A program made the translations under genes and the position numbers. Below are positions 36,326 to 51,630 of a stretch of 64,000 nt of DNA, in pieces. Source of the stretch: Planctomycetota bacterium (lineage in GTDB: Bacteria > Planctomycetota > JAJSAM01 > JAJVHW01); NCBI GenBank assembly GCA_024280885.1, contig JAJRPF010000003.1:27876-91875 (forward strand). Direction: 5' to 3'. The notes below the pieces were generated by a model. It saw nothing but the letters and a program-made list of their open reading frames with translations, was not told where the DNA came from and ran no database searches. Each line of letters starts with the position of its first letter. Position 1 is the stretch's first letter.

Positions 36326-37315
36326 CTACGCTCGGGAGACGACTCGCGCGCCGGTTCCGCGGAGTAGCGCGTCGGCGTTCGAACCGGCGCGCATGCCGAA
36401 GAGCGCGGTGGCCGCTGCGTCGGCCGTCAGGCAATCCGCTGCGACGACTGTCAGACTGTGCGTGCCCTCCGATGTCTCGCGGGGCGCGGCCGTTCGTGGG
36501 TCAAGGATGTGGTGGATCAAGCGCCCGCCGCGTCGCGTGGCCGTCTCGTAGTCGCCGCTGGTCGCCACCGCTGCGTCGCTGAGATCCAGCGTGTCACTGA
36601 GCTTGGTGGGGTCGTGCGGATCGCGCACGCCGACGCGCCAGGAGTCACCGTCGGCGCTGCGTCCGGCCGTCGCGAGGTCGCCGCCCGCGTTGACGATGGC
36701 GTCGCGGATGCCGCGGGCGCGGATCGCGGCGAGCGCACGATCCACCGCGTGTCCCTTCGCGATGCCACCGAGGTCGAGGGCGGCGTCGGGGCGGGTGATC
36801 CGGACGATGTCGCGTCCGCGATGGCGGTCCACGTCGAGGGCGCGGAATAGGTGTGCGTCGGCGAAGCGTGCGACGTCGGCGGAGTCGGACTCCTCGGAGT
36901 TCTCGGACTTCCACGCGTCCGAGAGGCGCCCCAGGCAGGGGTCGAAACGTCCTCGTGAGCGCTCCGCCCAGTGCAGCGCCTCGCGTACCACGAGAGCGGT
37001 CGCGGGTGCCACCGCGACGGGCTCGGCGCCCACGGCCAGGTTGATCCGCCCGACGTCGCTGTCCGGGCGGAAGCGCGACATGAACGCATCGACATGACGC
37101 AGTTCCGCGACGGCATCATCGAGTGCCGCGCGTGCGCGCAGCGCGTCGTCATCGATGACGACGAGATCGGCGATCGTGCCCATCACCGGCACGGTCCGGC
37201 GGAACGCCCGACGACGATCGCGCGCCGAGAGGGGGATCGCGGCGACGACGAACGCACCGATGCCGAGCGTGAGGACGTCGCGCCTGTTCAACGTGGGGAA
37301 CGAGAGTTCACGCAT
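36326..37315 (-). CDS. apbE: FAD:protein FMN transferase ApbE
   Basis: VVREALHWAERSRGRFDPCLGRL, DLGGIAKGHAVDRAL, NAGGDLATAG, VAADCLTADAAATALF. Confidence 0.9.
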   Translation of the reverse strand: MRELSFPTLNRRDVLTLGIGAFVVAAIPLSARDRRRAFRRTVPVMGTIADLVVIDDDALRARAALDDAVAELRHVDAFMSRFRPDSDVGRINLAVGAEPVAVAPATALVVREALHWAERSRGRFDPCLGRLSDAWKSENSEESDSADVARFADAHLFRALDVDRHRGRDIVRITRPDAALDLGGIAKGHAVDRALAAIRARGIRDAIVNAGGDLATAGRSADGDSWRVGVRDPHDPTKLSDTLDLSDAAVATSGDYETATRRGGRLIHHILDPRTAAPRETSEGTHSLTVVAADCLTADAAATALFGMRAGSNADALLRGTGARVVSRA

Positions 37316-37466
37316 GGTGATCCTCCGGAGCGGAAGGGGCGTTCGGGCAGGCACCGCAACGGGCGTGCGTGCCGCAGTCGGGGTCGTGGCAGCCGCGCCG
37401 CGAGAGCGACGCGAATGCGGCGAAGAGGAGCGCTGTGGCGACGGCGGCGATGACGTAGGTACTCAT
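37308..37466 (-). CDS. 52-aa Cys-rich single-TM protein, NqrM/FeoB-associated-like candidate
   Basis: MSTYVIAAVATALLFAAFASLSRRGCHDPDCGTHARCGACPNAPSAPEDHHA; ATGCGTGA overlap with apbE start; below the ORF-track size cutoff. Confidence 0.6.
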   Translation of the reverse strand: MSTYVIAAVATALLFAAFASLSRRGCHDPDCGTHARCGACPNAPSAPEDHHA

Positions 37467-37478
37467 GGGTGGATGCGT

Positions 37479-38057
37479 TCATGCAGCAGAGAGCAGCCCT
37501 GCGAAGCCCATGAAGGCGAGACTGAGTGTGCCCGCGATGATGAGGACGAGGCCGGTACCACGGGTGACCTCGGGTACGTCGGAGAGCTCGGTGGACTCGC
37601 GGATCGACGCCATCAAGACGAGTGCGAGTGTGAGCCCAAGTCCTGCGCCGACGGCGAAGAAGAGCCCCTCGAAGAGGCCGTAGCCGCGGTTGGTCTGGAA
37701 GATGGCGAGGCCGAGGATCGCGCAGTTGGTGGTGATCAGAGGGAGGAAGATCCCCAGTTGTCGGAAGAGCGCGGGGCTGAGCTTCTTCACGGCCATCTCG
37801 ACGATCTGCACGAGCGAAGCGATGACGACGATGAACGAGATCAGTCGGAGGTACGGCGCGTAGGGCAGGACGAATGTGTTGAGCGTCCACGCCGAGAGCG
37901 ATGTGAGGACCAGGACGAAGACGTTGGCGAGTCCCATGCGCAGCGCGGTATCGACCCGCGACGAGACGCCCATGAAGGGGCAGAGCCCGAGGAAGAGCGC
38001 GAGTGTGAAGTTGTTCACGACCATCGCGCTGAGGAGGATCCAGAAGAGGTCTGACAT
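37479..38057 (-). CDS. rnfA: Ion-translocating oxidoreductase subunit RnfA
   Basis: MVVNNFTLALFLGLCPFMGVS, TTNCAILGLAIFQ. Confidence 0.92.
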   Translation of the reverse strand: MSDLFWILLSAMVVNNFTLALFLGLCPFMGVSSRVDTALRMGLANVFVLVLTSLSAWTLNTFVLPYAPYLRLISFIVVIASLVQIVEMAVKKLSPALFRQLGIFLPLITTNCAILGLAIFQTNRGYGLFEGLFFAVGAGLGLTLALVLMASIRESTELSDVPEVTRGTGLVLIIAGTLSLAFMGFAGLLSAA

Positions 38058-38716
38058 CAGGCCACGCTCCCTTCTTGGACTGCGCCGTTCTTCGCCGTTC
38101 CGCCGTCCGCCGCTTCCTTGCGCCGCCGCTGGAACCACGACAATCCGATGAGCAGAGTTCCGAGTGTCAGGAAGCCGCCGGGCGGCAGGATCATGACGAC
38201 CCAGGGCTCGTAGCCGTCGCCGAAGAGCGGTATCCCGAGGAACGACCCCATCCCGACGATCTCGCGGAACGCGCCCATGAGGAAGAGTGCGATGACGAAG
38301 CCTGTGCCCGAGCCGATGGCGTCGAGGAGTGAGCGCACGACGGACCGCTTCGACGCGAACGCTTCTTGCCGACCGAGGATCATGCAGTTCACGACGATGA
38401 GCGCGATGAACGCGCCGAGCGCCTTGTGCACGTCGGGGACGAGCGCCTCGAGGCCCATGTCCGCGATCGTCACGAACGTCGCGATGATGAGGATGTAGGC
38501 GCTGATGCGGATCTCGTTCGGGATGAAGCGCTTCAGCAGCGCGACGAGCAGACTGGAGCCGAGCAGGACGAAGAACGTGGCGATGCCCATCGCTAGACTG
38601 TTCTCAACGGTATTCGTTACGGCGAGTGCGGGGCAGAGCCCGAGCATCTGCACGAGTACCGGGTTCTCGCGCCAGACGCCGCGCAGCAGGTCTTGCGAGG
38701 GAGTTGTGGCCTTCAT
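38057..38716 (-). CDS. rnfE: Ion-translocating oxidoreductase subunit RnfE
   Basis: WRENPVLVQMLGLCPALAVTNTVENSLAMG, LIVVNCMILGRQEAFA. Confidence 0.92.
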   Translation of the reverse strand: MKATTPSQDLLRGVWRENPVLVQMLGLCPALAVTNTVENSLAMGIATFFVLLGSSLLVALLKRFIPNEIRISAYILIIATFVTIADMGLEALVPDVHKALGAFIALIVVNCMILGRQEAFASKRSVVRSLLDAIGSGTGFVIALFLMGAFREIVGMGSFLGIPLFGDGYEPWVVMILPPGGFLTLGTLLIGLSWFQRRRKEAADGGTAKNGAVQEGSVA

Positions 38717-39414
38717 CGCGCTGCCTCCGCCTCTCTTGCATTGACGTACGCGTCGAGCAACGGGCGCACCCGGTCGAGCGCCTCGTTGATCGCGACGATG
38801 ACCGTGCGCGATGAGATCGTCGCGCCGGTGATCGTGTCGATCTCTCCGTCTGCGCCGCTGCCCCGGCCCGGTTTCACTCCGATCAGAGGCACGGCCGTAC
38901 CGTCGAATTGTGCGGTGAACGCAGTGTCCTTCTCGATCCGATCGCCCAGCCCCGGGGTCTCCTTGTTCCCGAGCACCTTCATGCCGCGCAGCGTGCCCGT
39001 GGCGGCGTCGTAGCCGAAAATGAGGGAGACGACATCCTGGAACCCCGGCCTCGCCGCGGGGACGGCGAAACCGTCGAGCGCGCCGTCGGGTCCGACGCCG
39101 GCATAGACGGCCTCGAGCGTGCGCACGTCGGTGCCGTCAGGAACGGTCGCGGTCAACGCGCCGTCGATGACGTAGAGCGTCTCGTACGTCTCGGGGCCGC
39201 CGAGGACTTCGAGCACCGCCGTGCGCAGGACCTCGGCCTTGTGCGCCTGGATGGCCGGCTGTGTCCACTGGTGCACCGAAACGAGCATGAGACCCGAGAG
39301 GGCTCCGGCCAGCGCCAGAGTTGCCACGAGACGCCACGACGAAACTTCCGGTCTCGCTTGCACGTTCTCGGGTGCATTCGTCGGCGCGTTGGGCGGCGAA
39401 GTCGCGGCGCTCAC
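38713..39414 (-). CDS. rnfG: Ion-translocating oxidoreductase subunit RnfG
   Basis: N-terminal TM; TPGLGDRIEKD, DTITGATISSRTV FMN-attachment motif; GTG start overlapping rnfD stop. Confidence 0.88.
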   Translation of the reverse strand: MSAATSPPNAPTNAPENVQARPEVSSWRLVATLALAGALSGLMLVSVHQWTQPAIQAHKAEVLRTAVLEVLGGPETYETLYVIDGALTATVPDGTDVRTLEAVYAGVGPDGALDGFAVPAARPGFQDVVSLIFGYDAATGTLRGMKVLGNKETPGLGDRIEKDTAFTAQFDGTAVPLIGVKPGRGSGADGEIDTITGATISSRTVIVAINEALDRVRPLLDAYVNAREAEAAR

Positions 39415-40412
39415 GACGCATCCTCCTTCGGACGCTGCCCGAAGACGCGCGGCTGCGTGACGCGGTTGATGAAGGGCACGAGCGCGTTCATCAACAGGAT
39501 CGCGTACATCACGCCTTCGGCCAGTCCACCCCAGACGCGGATCACCACGACGAGGAAACCGATTCCCGCTCCGAAGATCCACGCGCCCTTTGTCGTGACG
39601 GGGGAGGTCACCATGTCGGTCGCCATGAAGATCGCGCCCAGCACGAGTCCGCCCGAGAAGAGCATGAAGAGTGGCCCCGGATACTCCGGGTTGAGAAGGT
39701 GCAGCGCGCCCGCGAAGACCGCTGTCGTCAAGAAGACCGAAACCGGAATGCGCCAGTCGAGGTAGCGCTTCAGTGCGAGATACGCGCCGCAGACCAGGAT
39801 CAGGAGCGCCGACGTCTCACCGATCGAGCCGCCCGTCTGGCCGAAGAAGAGCTCCAGCACCTCGGTGCCAGTGCCCTCGAATTTCATCAGGCCGAGCGGA
39901 GTGGCGGCGGTGACGGTATCGGCCGCCGCGCTCATCAACGGCGTCGCAAAGAGATCGCCGCGAAGCGTCATCCACTCCTCGGTCGCTGCGGGCCACGTCG
40001 TGATGGCGACCGGGAATGCCGCCTGCAAGAACGCGCGTCCGACGAGTGCCGGATTGAAGACATTCTGTCCGAGGCCGCCGAAGACGAGCTTCCCGAAGGC
40101 AATGCCGAATGCACCGCCTACAAACGCCATCCAGAGTGGAAGACCGGGCGGCAACGTCAGTCCGAGAAGCAACCCGGTGATGGCGGCGGAACCGTCACCG
40201 AGTGCGCCACGCCGACCGAAGAAATGCTCCGGAAGCACTGCTCCTGCGACGGCCGCCGCCACGACGAGCAGCACACCGGGGCCGAAGAACCAGGTGCCGG
40301 CTGCGAGCAACGGCAAGAGGGTCGCGACGACGGTCCACATGATGCGCGGCGTCGAGTCCGTACTCCCGACATGGGGCGCGGCCGTGACGAGCAGACGCGA
40401 CTCGGCGCTCAC
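39411..40412 (-). CDS. rnfD: Ion-translocating oxidoreductase subunit RnfD
   Basis: FGGLGQNVFNPALVGRAFL, IFMATDMVTSPVTTKG; GTG start overlapping rnfC stop. Confidence 0.9.
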   Translation of the reverse strand: MSAESRLLVTAAPHVGSTDSTPRIMWTVVATLLPLLAAGTWFFGPGVLLVVAAAVAGAVLPEHFFGRRGALGDGSAAITGLLLGLTLPPGLPLWMAFVGGAFGIAFGKLVFGGLGQNVFNPALVGRAFLQAAFPVAITTWPAATEEWMTLRGDLFATPLMSAAADTVTAATPLGLMKFEGTGTEVLELFFGQTGGSIGETSALLILVCGAYLALKRYLDWRIPVSVFLTTAVFAGALHLLNPEYPGPLFMLFSGGLVLGAIFMATDMVTSPVTTKGAWIFGAGIGFLVVVIRVWGGLAEGVMYAILLMNALVPFINRVTQPRVFGQRPKEDAS

Positions 40413-41773
40413 GCGTTGGCCCCCGCTGCATCGCCCCGCAGAGTCTCGCGCTGCGCCTTGCGACGCAGGTCTGTCTTCGCCGCGCCGAACATCTGACTCA
40501 GAGGGATATTCGACGGACAGACGTACGAGCAGCAGCCGCACACCATGCAGAGTCCGAGGTGGTTGTCCCCCATTGCGTCGAGCCGACCCTTGCCCGCGAG
40601 GCTGCCTAGGAGTTGTGGGTTGAGGAAGACCGGGCACGCTTCGAGACAGCGCCCACAGCGGATGCAGGGATGTGTCACGCGACCGCGTACGTCCGCCTCG
40701 GTGAGTACGACAACGCCGGTCGTGCCCTTCATGACGGGCGCGTCGAGATCTCCGAGCGCCGTGCCCATCATCGGCCCGCCGAGAACGACCTCGGCCGCGT
40801 CGTCGGTCAGTCCGCCACATGCGTCGATCAGATGACGGATTCGCGTTCCGACGGGGACGATGAGGTTCTCCGGGCGGCGGATACCCGGACCGGTGACCGT
40901 GACGATGCGCTCGATCAGCGGCAATCCGGTCTCGAAGACCTCGGCGATGGTGGCGACCGACGCGACGTTCTGCACGACGACGCCGACATCGAGTGGCAAC
41001 CCGCCCTCGGGGACCTCTCGGTCGATCAATGCTTTGATGAGCATCTTCTCGGCGCCCTGCGGGTACTTCACCGTCAGGCCGAGGATCTCGACCTCGAGGT
41101 CATCCGGCTTCGTGCGCCGCAGGGCCTCGATCGCGTCGGGCTTGTTGTTCTCGACACCGATCAGCGCGCGCTTCGCACCGAGACATCGCATCATGATCCG
41201 CAACCCGAGATGCACGCGCTCCGGGTACTCGACCATTGTGCGGTGATCGGTCGTCAGATACGGCTCGCATTCGCAGCCATTCAGGACGAGCCGTTCGATC
41301 GCGCGCCCCTCGGGCGGTTTCAGCTTTACATGCGTCGGGAACGCCGCACCGCCGAGCCCCACGACGCCGCCTTGTCGGACGGCTTCGATCAATTCGTCGC
41401 CCGACAGTCCGTGCCAATCAGGGATGACACGTGGGCGCGGGATCTGCGCGGAGTGGGGCTCGACCGCGATGCGGATGGCCGTCTTGTAGCTCCCTGATGA
41501 ATGCGGTTGTAGTTCGATATCAACGACGGTTCCGGCCGCCGACGCGTGCACGGGGGAGGAGACCCAGCCGTCGGCATCTGCGATCTTGTCGCCGCGCTCC
41601 ACGCGATCGCCCGGCTTCACGATCGCACGTGCCGGCTGCCCCGCGTGCTGCGAGAGCGGCAGCACCAACTCGTCCGGGAAGGGCAGGCGCCGGATGGCCT
41701 TCGCCGCCGTGAGGTGCTTGCTCTCCGGCGGGTGGACCCCGTGGAGGAACGATCGGAGGAAGGCTGTGTTCAC
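40409..41773 (-). CDS. rnfC: Ion-translocating oxidoreductase subunit RnfC
   Basis: GLGGAAFPTHVKL, NGCECEPYLTTDHRTM, two CxxCxxCxxxCP clusters (CIRCGRCLEACP, CMVCGCCSYVCP). Confidence 0.92.
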   Translation of the reverse strand: MNTAFLRSFLHGVHPPESKHLTAAKAIRRLPFPDELVLPLSQHAGQPARAIVKPGDRVERGDKIADADGWVSSPVHASAAGTVVDIELQPHSSGSYKTAIRIAVEPHSAQIPRPRVIPDWHGLSGDELIEAVRQGGVVGLGGAAFPTHVKLKPPEGRAIERLVLNGCECEPYLTTDHRTMVEYPERVHLGLRIMMRCLGAKRALIGVENNKPDAIEALRRTKPDDLEVEILGLTVKYPQGAEKMLIKALIDREVPEGGLPLDVGVVVQNVASVATIAEVFETGLPLIERIVTVTGPGIRRPENLIVPVGTRIRHLIDACGGLTDDAAEVVLGGPMMGTALGDLDAPVMKGTTGVVVLTEADVRGRVTHPCIRCGRCLEACPVFLNPQLLGSLAGKGRLDAMGDNHLGLCMVCGCCSYVCPSNIPLSQMFGAAKTDLRRKAQRETLRGDAAGANA

Positions 41774-41782
41774 TTCAGCCTC

Positions 41783-46849
<5,067 letters not shown>

Positions 46850-46885: not shown

Positions 46886-47755
46886 CTACGCGTGAACGGG
46901 GGTTCCCGGTGCAGCGCCCGTGAGGGACGTGAGGGTCTGTGCGCCCTCCACCCAGACGATGGCATTCGTCGGACAGCGCAGCGTTGCGTCGGGACTGGTC
47001 TCGTGGTTATGCGAGTAGTCGATGACGGCGAGCCCGTCGCGCATCGCGATTACGCCCTCGGGCGCGTCCTGTGCGCAGCGTCCGCACGCAGTGCATGCGA
47101 CCTGGCAGATCGCCTCGGCCGCGTCGCCTTCGAGCAGACTCTTGCACTGAACGATCAGGTGTTGGTCCACCGGCATGAGCGTGAAGAGGTCCTTGGGGCA
47201 GGCCTCCACGCAATCGCCGCAGGCCGTGCAGAGTTCTGGGTCCACGACCGGCAGATCGACGGCGTTCATGTGGATCGCATCGAAGTCGCAGGCGACGTCG
47301 CAGTCGGCGAGTCCCAGGCAGCCCCATGTGCAGCCCTTGCCACCGCCAGCCACGGATGCCGCGGCGGAGCACGTGTCGAGACCTCGGTACTCGGCGCGCT
47401 GAAGCGCAACGTGCGATCCCCCGGCACAGAGCAGGCGCGCAACGCGTTGCACGGCTTCGCCAGCAGCGACGCCCAGGAACGTGGCGACATCTTCGACTTC
47501 GTCCGGACCGGAGACCGTGCAGCCAACCGGCTCGGCCGCGCCACCCACAAGACCCTCGGCAAACGCGCGACAGCCCGCGAACCCGCATGCTCCGCAGTTC
47601 GTGCCGGGAAGCAGATCGGCGACAGCCTCGATGCGCGGGTCTTCCCAGACCTGCAGATAGCGATGCGCGACTGCGATGAGCGATCCGAACACCAACCCCA
47701 CGCCGCCGAGTATCCCGGCGGGGACGAGCAGAGCGGCGGGGTCGAACGCACTCAT
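46886..47755 (-). CDS. rnfB: Ion-translocating oxidoreductase subunit RnfB
   Basis: N-terminal TM, LLPGTNCGACGFAGCRAFAEGL, CTACGDCVEACPKDLF, CTACGRCAQDAPEGVIAM. Confidence 0.9.
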   Translation of the reverse strand: MSAFDPAALLVPAGILGGVGLVFGSLIAVAHRYLQVWEDPRIEAVADLLPGTNCGACGFAGCRAFAEGLVGGAAEPVGCTVSGPDEVEDVATFLGVAAGEAVQRVARLLCAGGSHVALQRAEYRGLDTCSAAASVAGGGKGCTWGCLGLADCDVACDFDAIHMNAVDLPVVDPELCTACGDCVEACPKDLFTLMPVDQHLIVQCKSLLEGDAAEAICQVACTACGRCAQDAPEGVIAMRDGLAVIDYSHNHETSPDATLRCPTNAIVWVEGAQTLTSLTGAAPGTPVHA

Positions 47756-48762
47756 GCGGGCGGCGCTCCTCCGGGCCGCGCGTCCAGGCCGGCCTGGGCC
47801 AAGAGCCACACGGCGAGTTGCTCCGTCGGGGCGGGACGCGCGCTCTCTTCGTCGGCCTCCGGGGCGGGAAACGTCGGCTCCGACGCGAGTTCGGCCAACA
47901 ACGCGAGGTCCTCGCCTTGCTGGAACGCACTCATCCCGTCGAGCGCGCGTCGCGGTGCTCGCGGAATCACGGTGACGGAGAACCGCTCCCATGAGCGCGT
48001 GCCGCGTCGAGGGTCATGTGTGAAGAGTGCCGCGCCGTCGGGGACCATTGCCGCGACCGCCGGTCCGTCGAACGACATGCAATCGTCGAGCCCAGATCGT
48101 GATGCGACCTGCGCGACGTAGACGCCCGGCGTCGCCAAGCGCGCAAGTGCAGCGGGTGGGCACGCGCCATCGATTTTCAGGACGAGCTTCAGGCCGCCGT
48201 CCAGGAAGTCCGCCAGCCCGGCGACCTGCAGCTCCGAGCCGCGCACCTTCACGCGAATCGCCGGCGTGACAGCGCGCTCGGCAGGGCTCCACATCGCAAA
48301 CGGGAGACCGCGCAGGTAACGACCGTGTTCTGACTCGACCAAGCGCTCCGTTCGTGCGAGCTCGATGATACGCGCGGCTCCGAAGACGTAGCCGATCTCG
48401 CGCAAGGCGCGCGCTACGGCGGCGTGCAGACTCTCACGCGGTGCCACTTCGATCTTGGTCAGATCCTCGACGCGGTCGGAGAGTGTGACCAGCATCGCGG
48501 CAGCTTCATCGACACGCGCGAGAGTCGTCGGGTCGGTGCGGTGACCGGCGGTGTGCAGTCCTGCGAAGCGGCCCGCGTCGATGCGTCCGCCAGCGAACGC
48601 TCCGAGACGCTCACTGGCGAGACTTGCCTTCTCCGCATCGGTCGAGCGGTTCTCGTGCAAGAACGTCTCGGCGAGTTGGATCTGCGCCGCGATCCGTGCC
48701 CGGAACTCCTTCTGGGGGCCGGCGATCGGACACCCGGGCTGCGAAGCGTGTTCACACGGCAT
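47752..48762 (-). CDS. Uncharacterised 336-aa protein within the OFOR-Rnf cluster
   Basis: ATG at 48762 (MPCEHASQPGCPIAGPQKEF...) overlapping both neighbours (korB end 48752; rnfB start 47755); no family recognised. Confidence 0.75.
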   Translation of the reverse strand: MPCEHASQPGCPIAGPQKEFRARIAAQIQLAETFLHENRSTDAEKASLASERLGAFAGGRIDAGRFAGLHTAGHRTDPTTLARVDEAAAMLVTLSDRVEDLTKIEVAPRESLHAAVARALREIGYVFGAARIIELARTERLVESEHGRYLRGLPFAMWSPAERAVTPAIRVKVRGSELQVAGLADFLDGGLKLVLKIDGACPPAALARLATPGVYVAQVASRSGLDDCMSFDGPAVAAMVPDGAALFTHDPRRGTRSWERFSVTVIPRAPRRALDGMSAFQQGEDLALLAELASEPTFPAPEADEESARPAPTEQLAVWLLAQAGLDARPGGAPPA

Positions 48763-49699
48763 GGCGATCCAACTCCCTCTTGAGGATGGCGATCCGATCC
48801 TCTGGCGTGTAGCCCGGCACGCGGCGTGTCTCGTCGTAGCACGCGTTCGTCGGGTCGTGGAAGAAGAGCCCCAATCGCATTCCTCCCTCCTCGGCAAGGG
48901 CGCGTGCGGCGTTCAGATCGCTCGGGTCGTGATCCAGATGGTTCGTGTGGATCGCCTCGGTGGTCGCGTCGTGAATGCCCTTCTCGTGGACGAGTACCTC
49001 GACTTTCGCTGGATCTTGCACGGCGTCCCGGAAGAGCGATGCAGTCCAGATCGGACAGCGCTGCAGGATGCGGACGAACGCGAAACCCCTGTGGCGATAC
49101 GCCGCGTCGAGCGTCGCGTAGAGATGCTGTGGCGCCCAGTCCGCTGTCTGCGCAACGAAGGACGCGTTGGTGACGCCGAGCGTTACCGAGAGCGGATTCA
49201 TCGGGGGCAAGATGCTGCCGCGCGGTTGCGTGTTGCTGGGGAAGCCCTGCGGCGTGGTCGGAGACGTCTGTTTCTTCGTCAGTCCGTAGATGTTGTTGTC
49301 CAGGAGGAGCGCGACCATGTTGACGTTGTAGCGTACGGCGTGGATCCAGTGGGCGGCGCCGATCGAGCAGCAGTCGCCATCGCCCATGACCGCGAAGACG
49401 TCGAGGTCGGGACGCGCGAGCTTGACACCGGTAGAGATGGGCAGCGCGCGTCCGTGGATGCCATGGAAGCCGTACGTGCGCAGGTAGTGGGGGAAGCGAC
49501 TGGAGCAGCCGATCCCCGACACGAAGACCGTTTTCTCGGGGGCCATCTGATGCGTTGCGAGCAGTCGCTGGGCGGCGCTCAGAACCGAGTGGTCGCCGCA
49601 GCCGGGGCACCAACGTGCGACGGGTCCGGCATAGTCGTCCATCGAGTACTCGACGTCCGGCGCCGCGCCGCAGTCGGTGAGCGTGCAAGTGGCGGTCAC
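48752..49699 (-). CDS. korB: 2-oxoacid:ferredoxin oxidoreductase beta subunit
   Basis: RWCPGCGDHSVLSAAQ, GIGCSSRFPHYLRTYGFHGIHGRALPISTGVKLARPDLDVFAVMGDGDCCSIG. Confidence 0.92.
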   Translation of the reverse strand: MTATCTLTDCGAAPDVEYSMDDYAGPVARWCPGCGDHSVLSAAQRLLATHQMAPEKTVFVSGIGCSSRFPHYLRTYGFHGIHGRALPISTGVKLARPDLDVFAVMGDGDCCSIGAAHWIHAVRYNVNMVALLLDNNIYGLTKKQTSPTTPQGFPSNTQPRGSILPPMNPLSVTLGVTNASFVAQTADWAPQHLYATLDAAYRHRGFAFVRILQRCPIWTASLFRDAVQDPAKVEVLVHEKGIHDATTEAIHTNHLDHDPSDLNAARALAEEGGMRLGLFFHDPTNACYDETRRVPGYTPEDRIAILKRELDRHAV

Positions 49700-51630
49700 G
49701 ACGGATCTCCGTTCGCGTCTGCTGTGACGCTTCTGACGTTGGCGCGGATCGCATCTGCGACGTCCGCGGGCCGCAGCGGTTGCCCCGGAACACGCGTCCA
49801 GCAATCGATGTCCACGAGCGTCTGCGCGCGGAGGAGCGTGCAGAGTTGGCCGCGCCGCCGGTTCTCGTCGGTGATGTACGGGGCGTCCTTCTCGTCGCTG
49901 AAGTTGACCTCGACGGTCATGACCGACCTGAAGCGCGCGAACAGGTCCTTCAATCCGGGTTCCAGTGGAGAGAGGAACGTCAGGTTCGCCGACGACACCG
50001 CGTGGCCCTCGCTGACGAGGCGGTCCACCGCCTCTTCGATCGTGCCCCGCGTGCTGCCCCAGCCAACGACCAAGACGTCACCGTGACTCTCGCCATGCGT
50101 CTTCGGCGGCTGCAACGTGCTCTGGAGCACCGCAATCTTGCGGCTGCGCATGTCGCAGCCGCGTTGGTTCACTCCGGTCGCGTAGCGGACCTTGCTGTCC
50201 TCGTCGTGAACCAGACCGGTCAGCGTGTACATGCCGCCCGCCTGCCCCGGGATGAAGCGTCGCGAGAGGCCTGTGCGATCGTCCCAGTCGTAGGGACGCG
50301 CTCCCTCCGGCACCGGGTCCTGATCTGGTGGCCCGGCCATCCAATTCGAGTCCGGTTTGGGGCGTGGGAATGGCTGCACGCCCGTTGCGAGATTCGCGTC
50401 CGTGAGGACGTACACGACGCAGCGGAACGCCTCGGCGATGCGGCGTGCTGTGATCAGAACGTGGAAGCACTCCTCGATCGTCGAGGGCGCAATGACGACC
50501 TTGGGTGCGTCGCCCGGCTGTCCGTAGAGCACCGCCAGAAGATCCGACTGCTCCACCTTCGTGGGGAGCCCGGTGGATGGCCCGCCGCGTTGAACATCCA
50601 CAACCACGAGCGGCACCTCGGTCATGGCCGCGAGCCCGAGGAACTCGGTCTTGAGGGCGAGTCCGGGCCCGGAGGTGACCGTGAACGCGACCTTCCCGGC
50701 GAACGATGCCCCGATTGCGACACCCACCGCGGCGATCTCGTCCTCGGCTTGGTGCACGATGCCGCCCGCGTCCTCGAAGACCTCGCTCAGGTAGTGCGAG
50801 ACGGATGTGGCCGGTGTGATGGGGTACATCGAGCAGAGGTCCATCCCCGCCGCGATTGCGCTCATGCCGAGGGCCGTGTTGCCGTTCATCACGACCATGT
50901 CGTCCGTGTAGGGCTCGGTCGCGACCTCCACGCGGAAGGGCAGGTTCTCGCGTGCCCATGCGCAGCCCAGATCGAAGAGCTCGGCGTTGCGCTCGTAGAT
51001 CTCCGGCTTCTTCTTGCGGAACGCGTAGGCGATCTGCGCCTTGCAGCGCTCCGTGTCGCGACCGTAGATCGCGGCCAGGAGCCCGAACACGAACATGTTC
51101 TTGCCGCGCCTCGGGTCGTCCACCACGGTCAGGCAGCGCTCCTCCATCGGCACGAGGATGATGCGGTAGTTCCGCGCCGAGAGTTCCTCCATCGCAGCGT
51201 TCCAGGCGGCGCGGATCGAGTCGTTGTCGTGTTCGGCCCACATCGACTCGATCAGGATGACGGCATCGTCGGCGAGGGCCTCCTGGCGGTGTCGGGAGAG
51301 CAGCACCTGCTCGTTGAAGGCGACCACCAGTTCGGCGTGGTCGCCCCAGTTAGTGATCGCCTGCGTGCCGAGACGGATACGCACACCGCTCGCGCTGGCT
51401 GGTGTCCGCGCCGGAGGTTGGATCTCGGCGGGGATGATCTCGACTGTCCAGACCCCGTTGCCCATCTTGGCGGAGACGGCGCCGAACGACTGGCCGCACT
51501 TCTGCGCGCCCTCCCCCGAGTCCGAGACCACCTCGACGCAGTGCTCGCGCACGTGGAGGACTTGGGTGGACTCCGGCGCGAGAACGCCGGCCGCGACGGG
51601 CGCGGAAGTAGGGGTCGTCATGGCACTCAC
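49696..51630 (-). CDS. korA: 2-oxoacid:ferredoxin oxidoreductase, fused gamma-alpha subunit
   Basis: N-terminal gamma-type domain, then MNGNTALGMSAIAAGMDLCSMYPITPATSVSHYL, TSGPGLALKTEFLGLA, QRGGPSTGLPTKVEQSDLL. Confidence 0.92.
   Translation of the reverse strand: MSAMTTPTSAPVAAGVLAPESTQVLHVREHCVEVVSDSGEGAQKCGQSFGAVSAKMGNGVWTVEIIPAEIQPPARTPASASGVRIRLGTQAITNWGDHAELVVAFNEQVLLSRHRQEALADDAVILIESMWAEHDNDSIRAAWNAAMEELSARNYRIILVPMEERCLTVVDDPRRGKNMFVFGLLAAIYGRDTERCKAQIAYAFRKKKPEIYERNAELFDLGCAWARENLPFRVEVATEPYTDDMVVMNGNTALGMSAIAAGMDLCSMYPITPATSVSHYLSEVFEDAGGIVHQAEDEIAAVGVAIGASFAGKVAFTVTSGPGLALKTEFLGLAAMTEVPLVVVDVQRGGPSTGLPTKVEQSDLLAVLYGQPGDAPKVVIAPSTIEECFHVLITARRIAEAFRCVVYVLTDANLATGVQPFPRPKPDSNWMAGPPDQDPVPEGARPYDWDDRTGLSRRFIPGQAGGMYTLTGLVHDEDSKVRYATGVNQRGCDMRSRKIAVLQSTLQPPKTHGESHGDVLVVGWGSTRGTIEEAVDRLVSEGHAVSSANLTFLSPLEPGLKDLFARFRSVMTVEVNFSDEKDAPYITDENRRRGQLCTLLRAQTLVDIDCWTRVPGQPLRPADVADAIRANVRSVTADANGDPS

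Follow-up and report, generated by a model that had tools for sequence, protein, structure and literature searches.

What does the short interval between rnfA and apbE in a Planctomycetota rnf cluster encode, and does its product serve the Rnf complex? The interval lies in the window, the whole stretch of 64,000 nucleotides that was analyzed, and holds an open reading frame (ORF) that, being short and without an above-cut-off match to any named family, may escape annotation. The ORF and the genes around it are as follows.

36326-37315, minus strand: apbE, FMN transferase (PF02424, E 4e-68).
37308-37466, minus strand: the small ORF, 52 aa with an ATG start, a single transmembrane (TM) segment and four Cys, MSTYVIAAVATALLFAAFASLSRRGCHDPDCGTHARCGACPNAPSAPEDHHA.
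37479-38057, minus strand: rnfA, Rnf-Nqr subunit (PF02508, E 1e-54; TIGR01943, E 6e-67), with Cys in LGLCP and TTNCA.
38057-38716, minus strand: rnfE, second half of the metal site (PF02508, TIGR01948), with Cys in LGLCP and VVNCM.
38713-39414, minus strand, predicted start: rnfG, with the flavinylation-type motif ITGATISS (PF04205, TIGR01947).
39411-40412, minus strand, predicted start: rnfD (PF03116, TIGR01946).
40409-41773, minus strand: rnfC (TIGR01945, E 2e-154).
41783-46849, minus strand: 2-oxoacid:ferredoxin oxidoreductase of 1688 aa with a C-terminal ferredoxin domain (POR_N, POR, PFOR_II, Fer4_13).
46886-47755, minus strand: rnfB, with a TM segment, a PF04060 FeS domain and 4Fe-4S domains.

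The ORF begins 12 nt after the end of rnfA and its stop overlaps the start of apbE by 8 nt (ATGCGTGA); the plus-strand reading of the same interval is unrelated. Its Cys occupy positions 26, 31, 37 and 40, all C-terminal to the hydrophobic segment, with the spacing C-x4-C-x5-C-x2-C. AlphaFold2, run on the monomer only, predicted one helix spanning residues 2 to 23 with a pLDDT of about 90 and a tail of low confidence. The preliminary description of this DNA, which had placed a TM helix with four Cys between rnfA and apbE and an overlap at the apbE start, thus agrees with our reading. It had also drawn attention to His and Asp in the tail, a detail that needs correction. The C-terminal EDHH is encoded by the Shine-Dalgarno and start region of apbE (GGAGGATCACCATG), and His/Asp-type tails occur in 19 of 27 loci with apbE close behind versus 13 of 51 elsewhere. 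Since such tails are commoner where apbE follows closely, we regard the terminal His and Asp as weaker evidence of metal binding than the Cys.

The cluster is transcribed in the order oxidoreductase alpha, oxidoreductase beta, a 381-aa ORF, rnfB, large oxidoreductase, rnfC, rnfD, rnfG, rnfE, rnfA, small ORF and apbE. RnfA and RnfE each keep two Cys. The source genome contains one Rnf, and rnfA and rnfE are its only matches of the NqrD/E type. Profile searches of this genome detected neither an NqrF above cut-off nor an NqrM, and found no Na+-translocating NADH:quinone oxidoreductase (NQR). The idea that the small ORF replaces a missing RnfB was discarded, as rnfB is present in the window at 46886-47755. 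The large oxidoreductase sits between rnfB and rnfC, and a second 2-oxoacid:ferredoxin oxidoreductase is encoded 5' of rnfB (48752-51630, minus strand; alpha 49696-51630, beta 48752-49804). The 381-aa ORF (47752-48897, minus strand) lies between the beta gene and rnfB, overlapping, and has no Pfam match.

To evaluate whether the ORF is a gene, we gathered loci by RnfA similarity alone, from Planctomycetota genomes and from the best 80 matches in the GTDB species collection; a few loci are duplicated across collections (G001 = L061; L043/L075 and L044/L076 are identical). At each stop of a reference gene, we looked for an ORF of 30 to 110 aa with a TM segment and at least 3 Cys that started within -12 to +60 nt. 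Such an ORF was found at the rnfA stop in 72 of 98 loci, whereas the stops of rnfD (0/87), rnfG (0/94), rnfC (0/67) and apbE (0/34) gave none in 282 cases and shuffled downstream DNA gave 8 in 1960. Stops of rnfE gave 3 in 98, two of which were the same small gene, the rnfE query having matched rnfA. These numbers rule out a chance ORF in GC-rich DNA. A genome of the same genus (G001) also has an ORF between its rnfA and apbE genes; the product is 48% identical, and its four Cys all align with those of the window protein. Two more genera of the family have a recognizable counterpart between the same genes. The preliminary description had let its reading hang on conservation of the ORF and its Cys in relatives with the cluster, and both are conserved. 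Furthermore, pN was below pS in 43 of 44 relative pairs sharing 55% identity or more (mean 0.27 versus 0.55), although the pairs are non-independent and were picked by amino acid identity, which biases pN/pS downwards. The window and G001, a pair not picked in this way, gave a dN/dS of 0.61, a moderate constraint only. Judged by these comparisons, the small ORF is a real, conserved gene rather than a product of chance.

We then examined a set of 78 members, for which the selection asked for no more than two Cys in the whole ORF. In all 78, Lys and Arg are commoner after the TM segment than before it, which under the positive-inside rule predicts a tail on the cytoplasmic side. The most frequent number of Cys beyond the TM segment is exactly four (54/78); tails with two or three also occur. 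A CxxC motif is present in 59 of the 78, a threefold enrichment: permuting the tails gave an expectation of 19 and, in 200 permutations, at most 30. The spacing of the Cys varies widely, C-x2-C-x3-C, C-x3-C-x1-C-x5-C and the C-x4-C-x5-C-x2-C of the window being among the commonest arrangements. The members fall into two types, a short one (A1) and an RHPE/RNPQ type in which a conserved stretch separates the TM segment from the Cys (A2), and the profiles of the two match each other at 97%, versus 44% for a reversed control. The RHPE type (L101 to L140, e.g., L130, L131 and L117) carries an RHPELGPFR-like stretch in that position and comes from Beta- and Gammaproteobacteria and the PVC group; a plasmid search with one RHPE-type member gave no match.

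The distribution of the gene follows the phylogeny of RnfA. In a tree of 110 RnfA rows, one branch with an SH-aLRT of 100 splits 88 rows from 22; because the root is a midpoint root, the result is strictly a split and not a rooted clade. The small gene lies beside rnfA in 81 of the 88 rows on one side and in 0 of the 22 on the other, and its presence on the tree can be explained by seven state changes. The 81 carriers include one locus in which the gene lies ∼460 nt downstream of rnfA (L100) and one from Lentisphaeria (L136) in which the frame, from 3963, is open after an early stop and has no standard start codon. This anomaly may reflect a change of start, a sequencing error or decay. Carriers are labeled Planctomycetota, Gemmatimonadota, Rokubacteria, Acidobacteria, Bacteroidota, Hydrogenedentota, Verrucomicrobia, Kiritimatiellae and several Proteobacteria, including Thiocapsa, Lamprocystis, Ectothiorhodospira and Rhodocyclaceae, with the proviso that many loci come from metagenome-assembled genomes whose labels are doubtful. 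Together with the count at the rnfA stop, the split bears out the earlier suggestion of a protein dedicated to Rnf.

Seven rows on the carrier side lack an adjacent copy. Where the gene is missing next to one rnfA, the genome can hold it at a second rnf cluster: L062, with an RnfA of 87% identity and no adjacent gene, belongs to a genome in which a second rnfE-rnfA pair is followed by the small gene (L210). The Thiomargarita genome of L085 has an unlinked copy (L209). For L068, L086, L089, L090 and L096, no copy was found beside rnfA and no convincing one elsewhere in the genome, most of these genomes being drafts in which short, divergent ORFs can be missed. On the other side of the split, Rnf clades share the metal site yet have no such gene beside rnfA; therefore, the gene is not a requirement of Rnf in general. 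A 2-oxoacid:ferredoxin oxidoreductase like that of the window is encoded 5' of rnfC in 47 of the 51 clade loci where the region is visible versus 0 of 11 loci across the split, which suggests that this Rnf branch is functionally coupled to the oxidoreductase. The small gene is present in the four clade loci with no visible upstream oxidoreductase (L063, L091, L107 and L114) and therefore tracks Rnf rather than the oxidoreductase.

The preliminary description had cited as a precedent NqrM, which is reported to be required for inserting the metal into NqrD/E and is encoded with apbE after the nqr genes (PMC12174285, PMC6209661). The likeness is real in outline: NqrM (PF04400, DUF539) also has one N-terminal TM helix, a short basic stretch and four Cys after the TM helix, and it is likewise encoded with apbE behind the operon of a homologous pump. 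Its spacing is fixed, however (C-x11-C-x2-C-x6-C in 29 of 31), whereas that of the Rnf family is variable. The Rnf family also lacks the GSCGG motif, and neither the window protein nor any of 60 aligned members matched PF04400 at E 0.1. Unlike NqrM, it is tied to Rnf, usually where NqrM is absent (22 of 24 checked genomes of rnf loci), and the source genome has no Na+-NQR. Profile-profile comparison with NqrM gave 89% for A1 (controls 40 to 43%) and 47% for A2 (controls 2 to 3%), with only the TM segment aligned for A2. The comparison with FeoB-associated Cys-rich proteins (PF12669) gave 96% for A1 (reversed control 16%) and 96% for A2. As small profiles with a TM segment and Cys score high through composition, we read all of these scores as likeness of architecture and not as proven homology. 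Membership in the NqrM family is ruled out by the missing PF04400 match, the different and variable Cys spacing and the weak profile similarity, and homology to NqrM was not borne out. The comparison with the FeoB-associated family, which had been proposed alongside, did return a faint likeness. These proteins have a similar length, a single TM segment and a CxxC-type tail, and 20 of 40 A1 members give weak PF12669 matches (E<0.1, best 8e-5), most of which fall short of the curated cut-off; the window protein reaches 13.9 bits against a gathering score of 27 bits. Unlike the rnf copies, canonical PF12669 genes in this phylum follow feoB and none is close to rnf, and the RHPE-type relatives have no PF12669 match at all. 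Nothing else convincing was found for A1 in NCBIfam or for A2 in Pfam or NCBIfam, and a PDB search with the family profile returned unrelated TM matches only. RnfB and RnfG are also encoded in rnf clusters and also have one TM helix, but they show no relation to the small ORF in Pfam or NCBIfam, and rnfB and rnfG are separately present. RnfH, likewise encoded in rnf clusters, is a soluble ubiquitin-like protein.

On balance, we favor, from the sequence evidence, the view that the small ORF encodes an accessory protein dedicated to one large Rnf clade, which probably delivers iron to the RnfA/RnfE metal site, modeled in Rnf as a single Fe (PMC9588780). The tail would lie in the cytoplasm, where its Cys would bind Fe2+ or a nascent Fe-S unit. 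The TM helix would dock on RnfA/RnfE, and iron would be loaded into the membrane four-Cys site that the two subunits form, alongside ApbE, which attaches FMN. The protein would thereby play in this Rnf clade the part presumed for NqrM in Na+-NQR, without belonging to the NqrM family. A maturation factor fits because the gene adjoins rnfA, which encodes a metal-ligating subunit, and often apbE, which encodes a cofactor-attaching enzyme, and because it occurs mostly where NqrM is absent. Against it count the Cys spacing, variable unlike that of NqrM, the five exceptions without a convincing copy, the dN/dS of 0.61 and the other clades that lack the gene. More tentatively, the members may form a new family of small membrane metallochaperones that load iron into RnfA/RnfE in one Rnf clade, usually with a 2-oxoacid:ferredoxin oxidoreductase, and that spread with the clade through many phyla. 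If so, Rnf maturation in this clade would need a specific factor, as that of NQR does.

The main competitor, to which we give a modest chance, is a small stoichiometric Rnf subunit of the clade with a structural, stabilizing or regulatory role, its Cys serving stability or redox sensing and not iron delivery. A gene so strictly tied to rnfA, with one TM helix in its product, would suit a subunit, and the single TM helices of RnfB and RnfG also pack on RnfA/E (PMC9588780). Yet a variable sequence and Cys spacing are ill-suited to a fixed structural subunit, and the Thiomargarita genome keeps its small gene unlinked. The Clostridium tetanomorphum structure comprises RnfABCDEG only, but it represents another clade (PMC9588780). 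It is improbable that an FeoB-associated protein for iron handling in general was recruited to the operon, to sense or buffer iron without acting on Rnf: the weak PF12669 matches in half of A1 and the profile score speak for such an origin, but most rnf copies score under the curated cut-off, their occurrence goes with the RnfA clade, and the canonical loci are found with feoB.

The four Cys and the CxxC enrichment might also point to a redox Fe-S centre, bound by the Cys, that relays electrons between RnfB and the RnfA/E site, with a membrane anchor as in the layout of RnfB and NqrF. Such an electron relay is unlikely, and we put little weight on it, because the cluster already has an rnfB whose product carries an FeS domain, so that no relay is missing, and because the spacing is too loose for one cluster fold, some members having just two or three tail Cys. 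The slightest chance goes to a protein that assists ApbE or the flavinylated subunits and not the metal site. The overlap with apbE in the window would agree with this, as would the 27 of 78 loci in which apbE follows closely, but apbE lies within 2.5 kb in only 22 of 51 clade loci, the small gene is present regardless, and it follows rnfA, not rnfG or rnfD.

A 2025 review names ApbE for RNF and a metal-insertion factor, NqrM, for NQR only (PMC12174285), and we found no description of a small Rnf maturation factor in the openly licensed papers searched. The small gene offers a candidate for how Rnf gains its membrane-embedded iron site. It also defines an Rnf clade in which this role can be tested, with the cultured Thiocapsa, Lamprocystis, Ectothiorhodospira and Parasulfuritortus and with relatives that are natural negatives.

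Heme-copper oxidase was present in all 28 searched carrier genomes, including two with the gene unlinked or beside a second rnf cluster. A link to oxygen was set aside, as the oxidase also occurs in 7 of 10 comparison genomes across the split and does not discriminate. The unlinked copy in the Thiomargarita genome is flanked by a rhodanese-like ORF and an ABC-type ATPase ORF.
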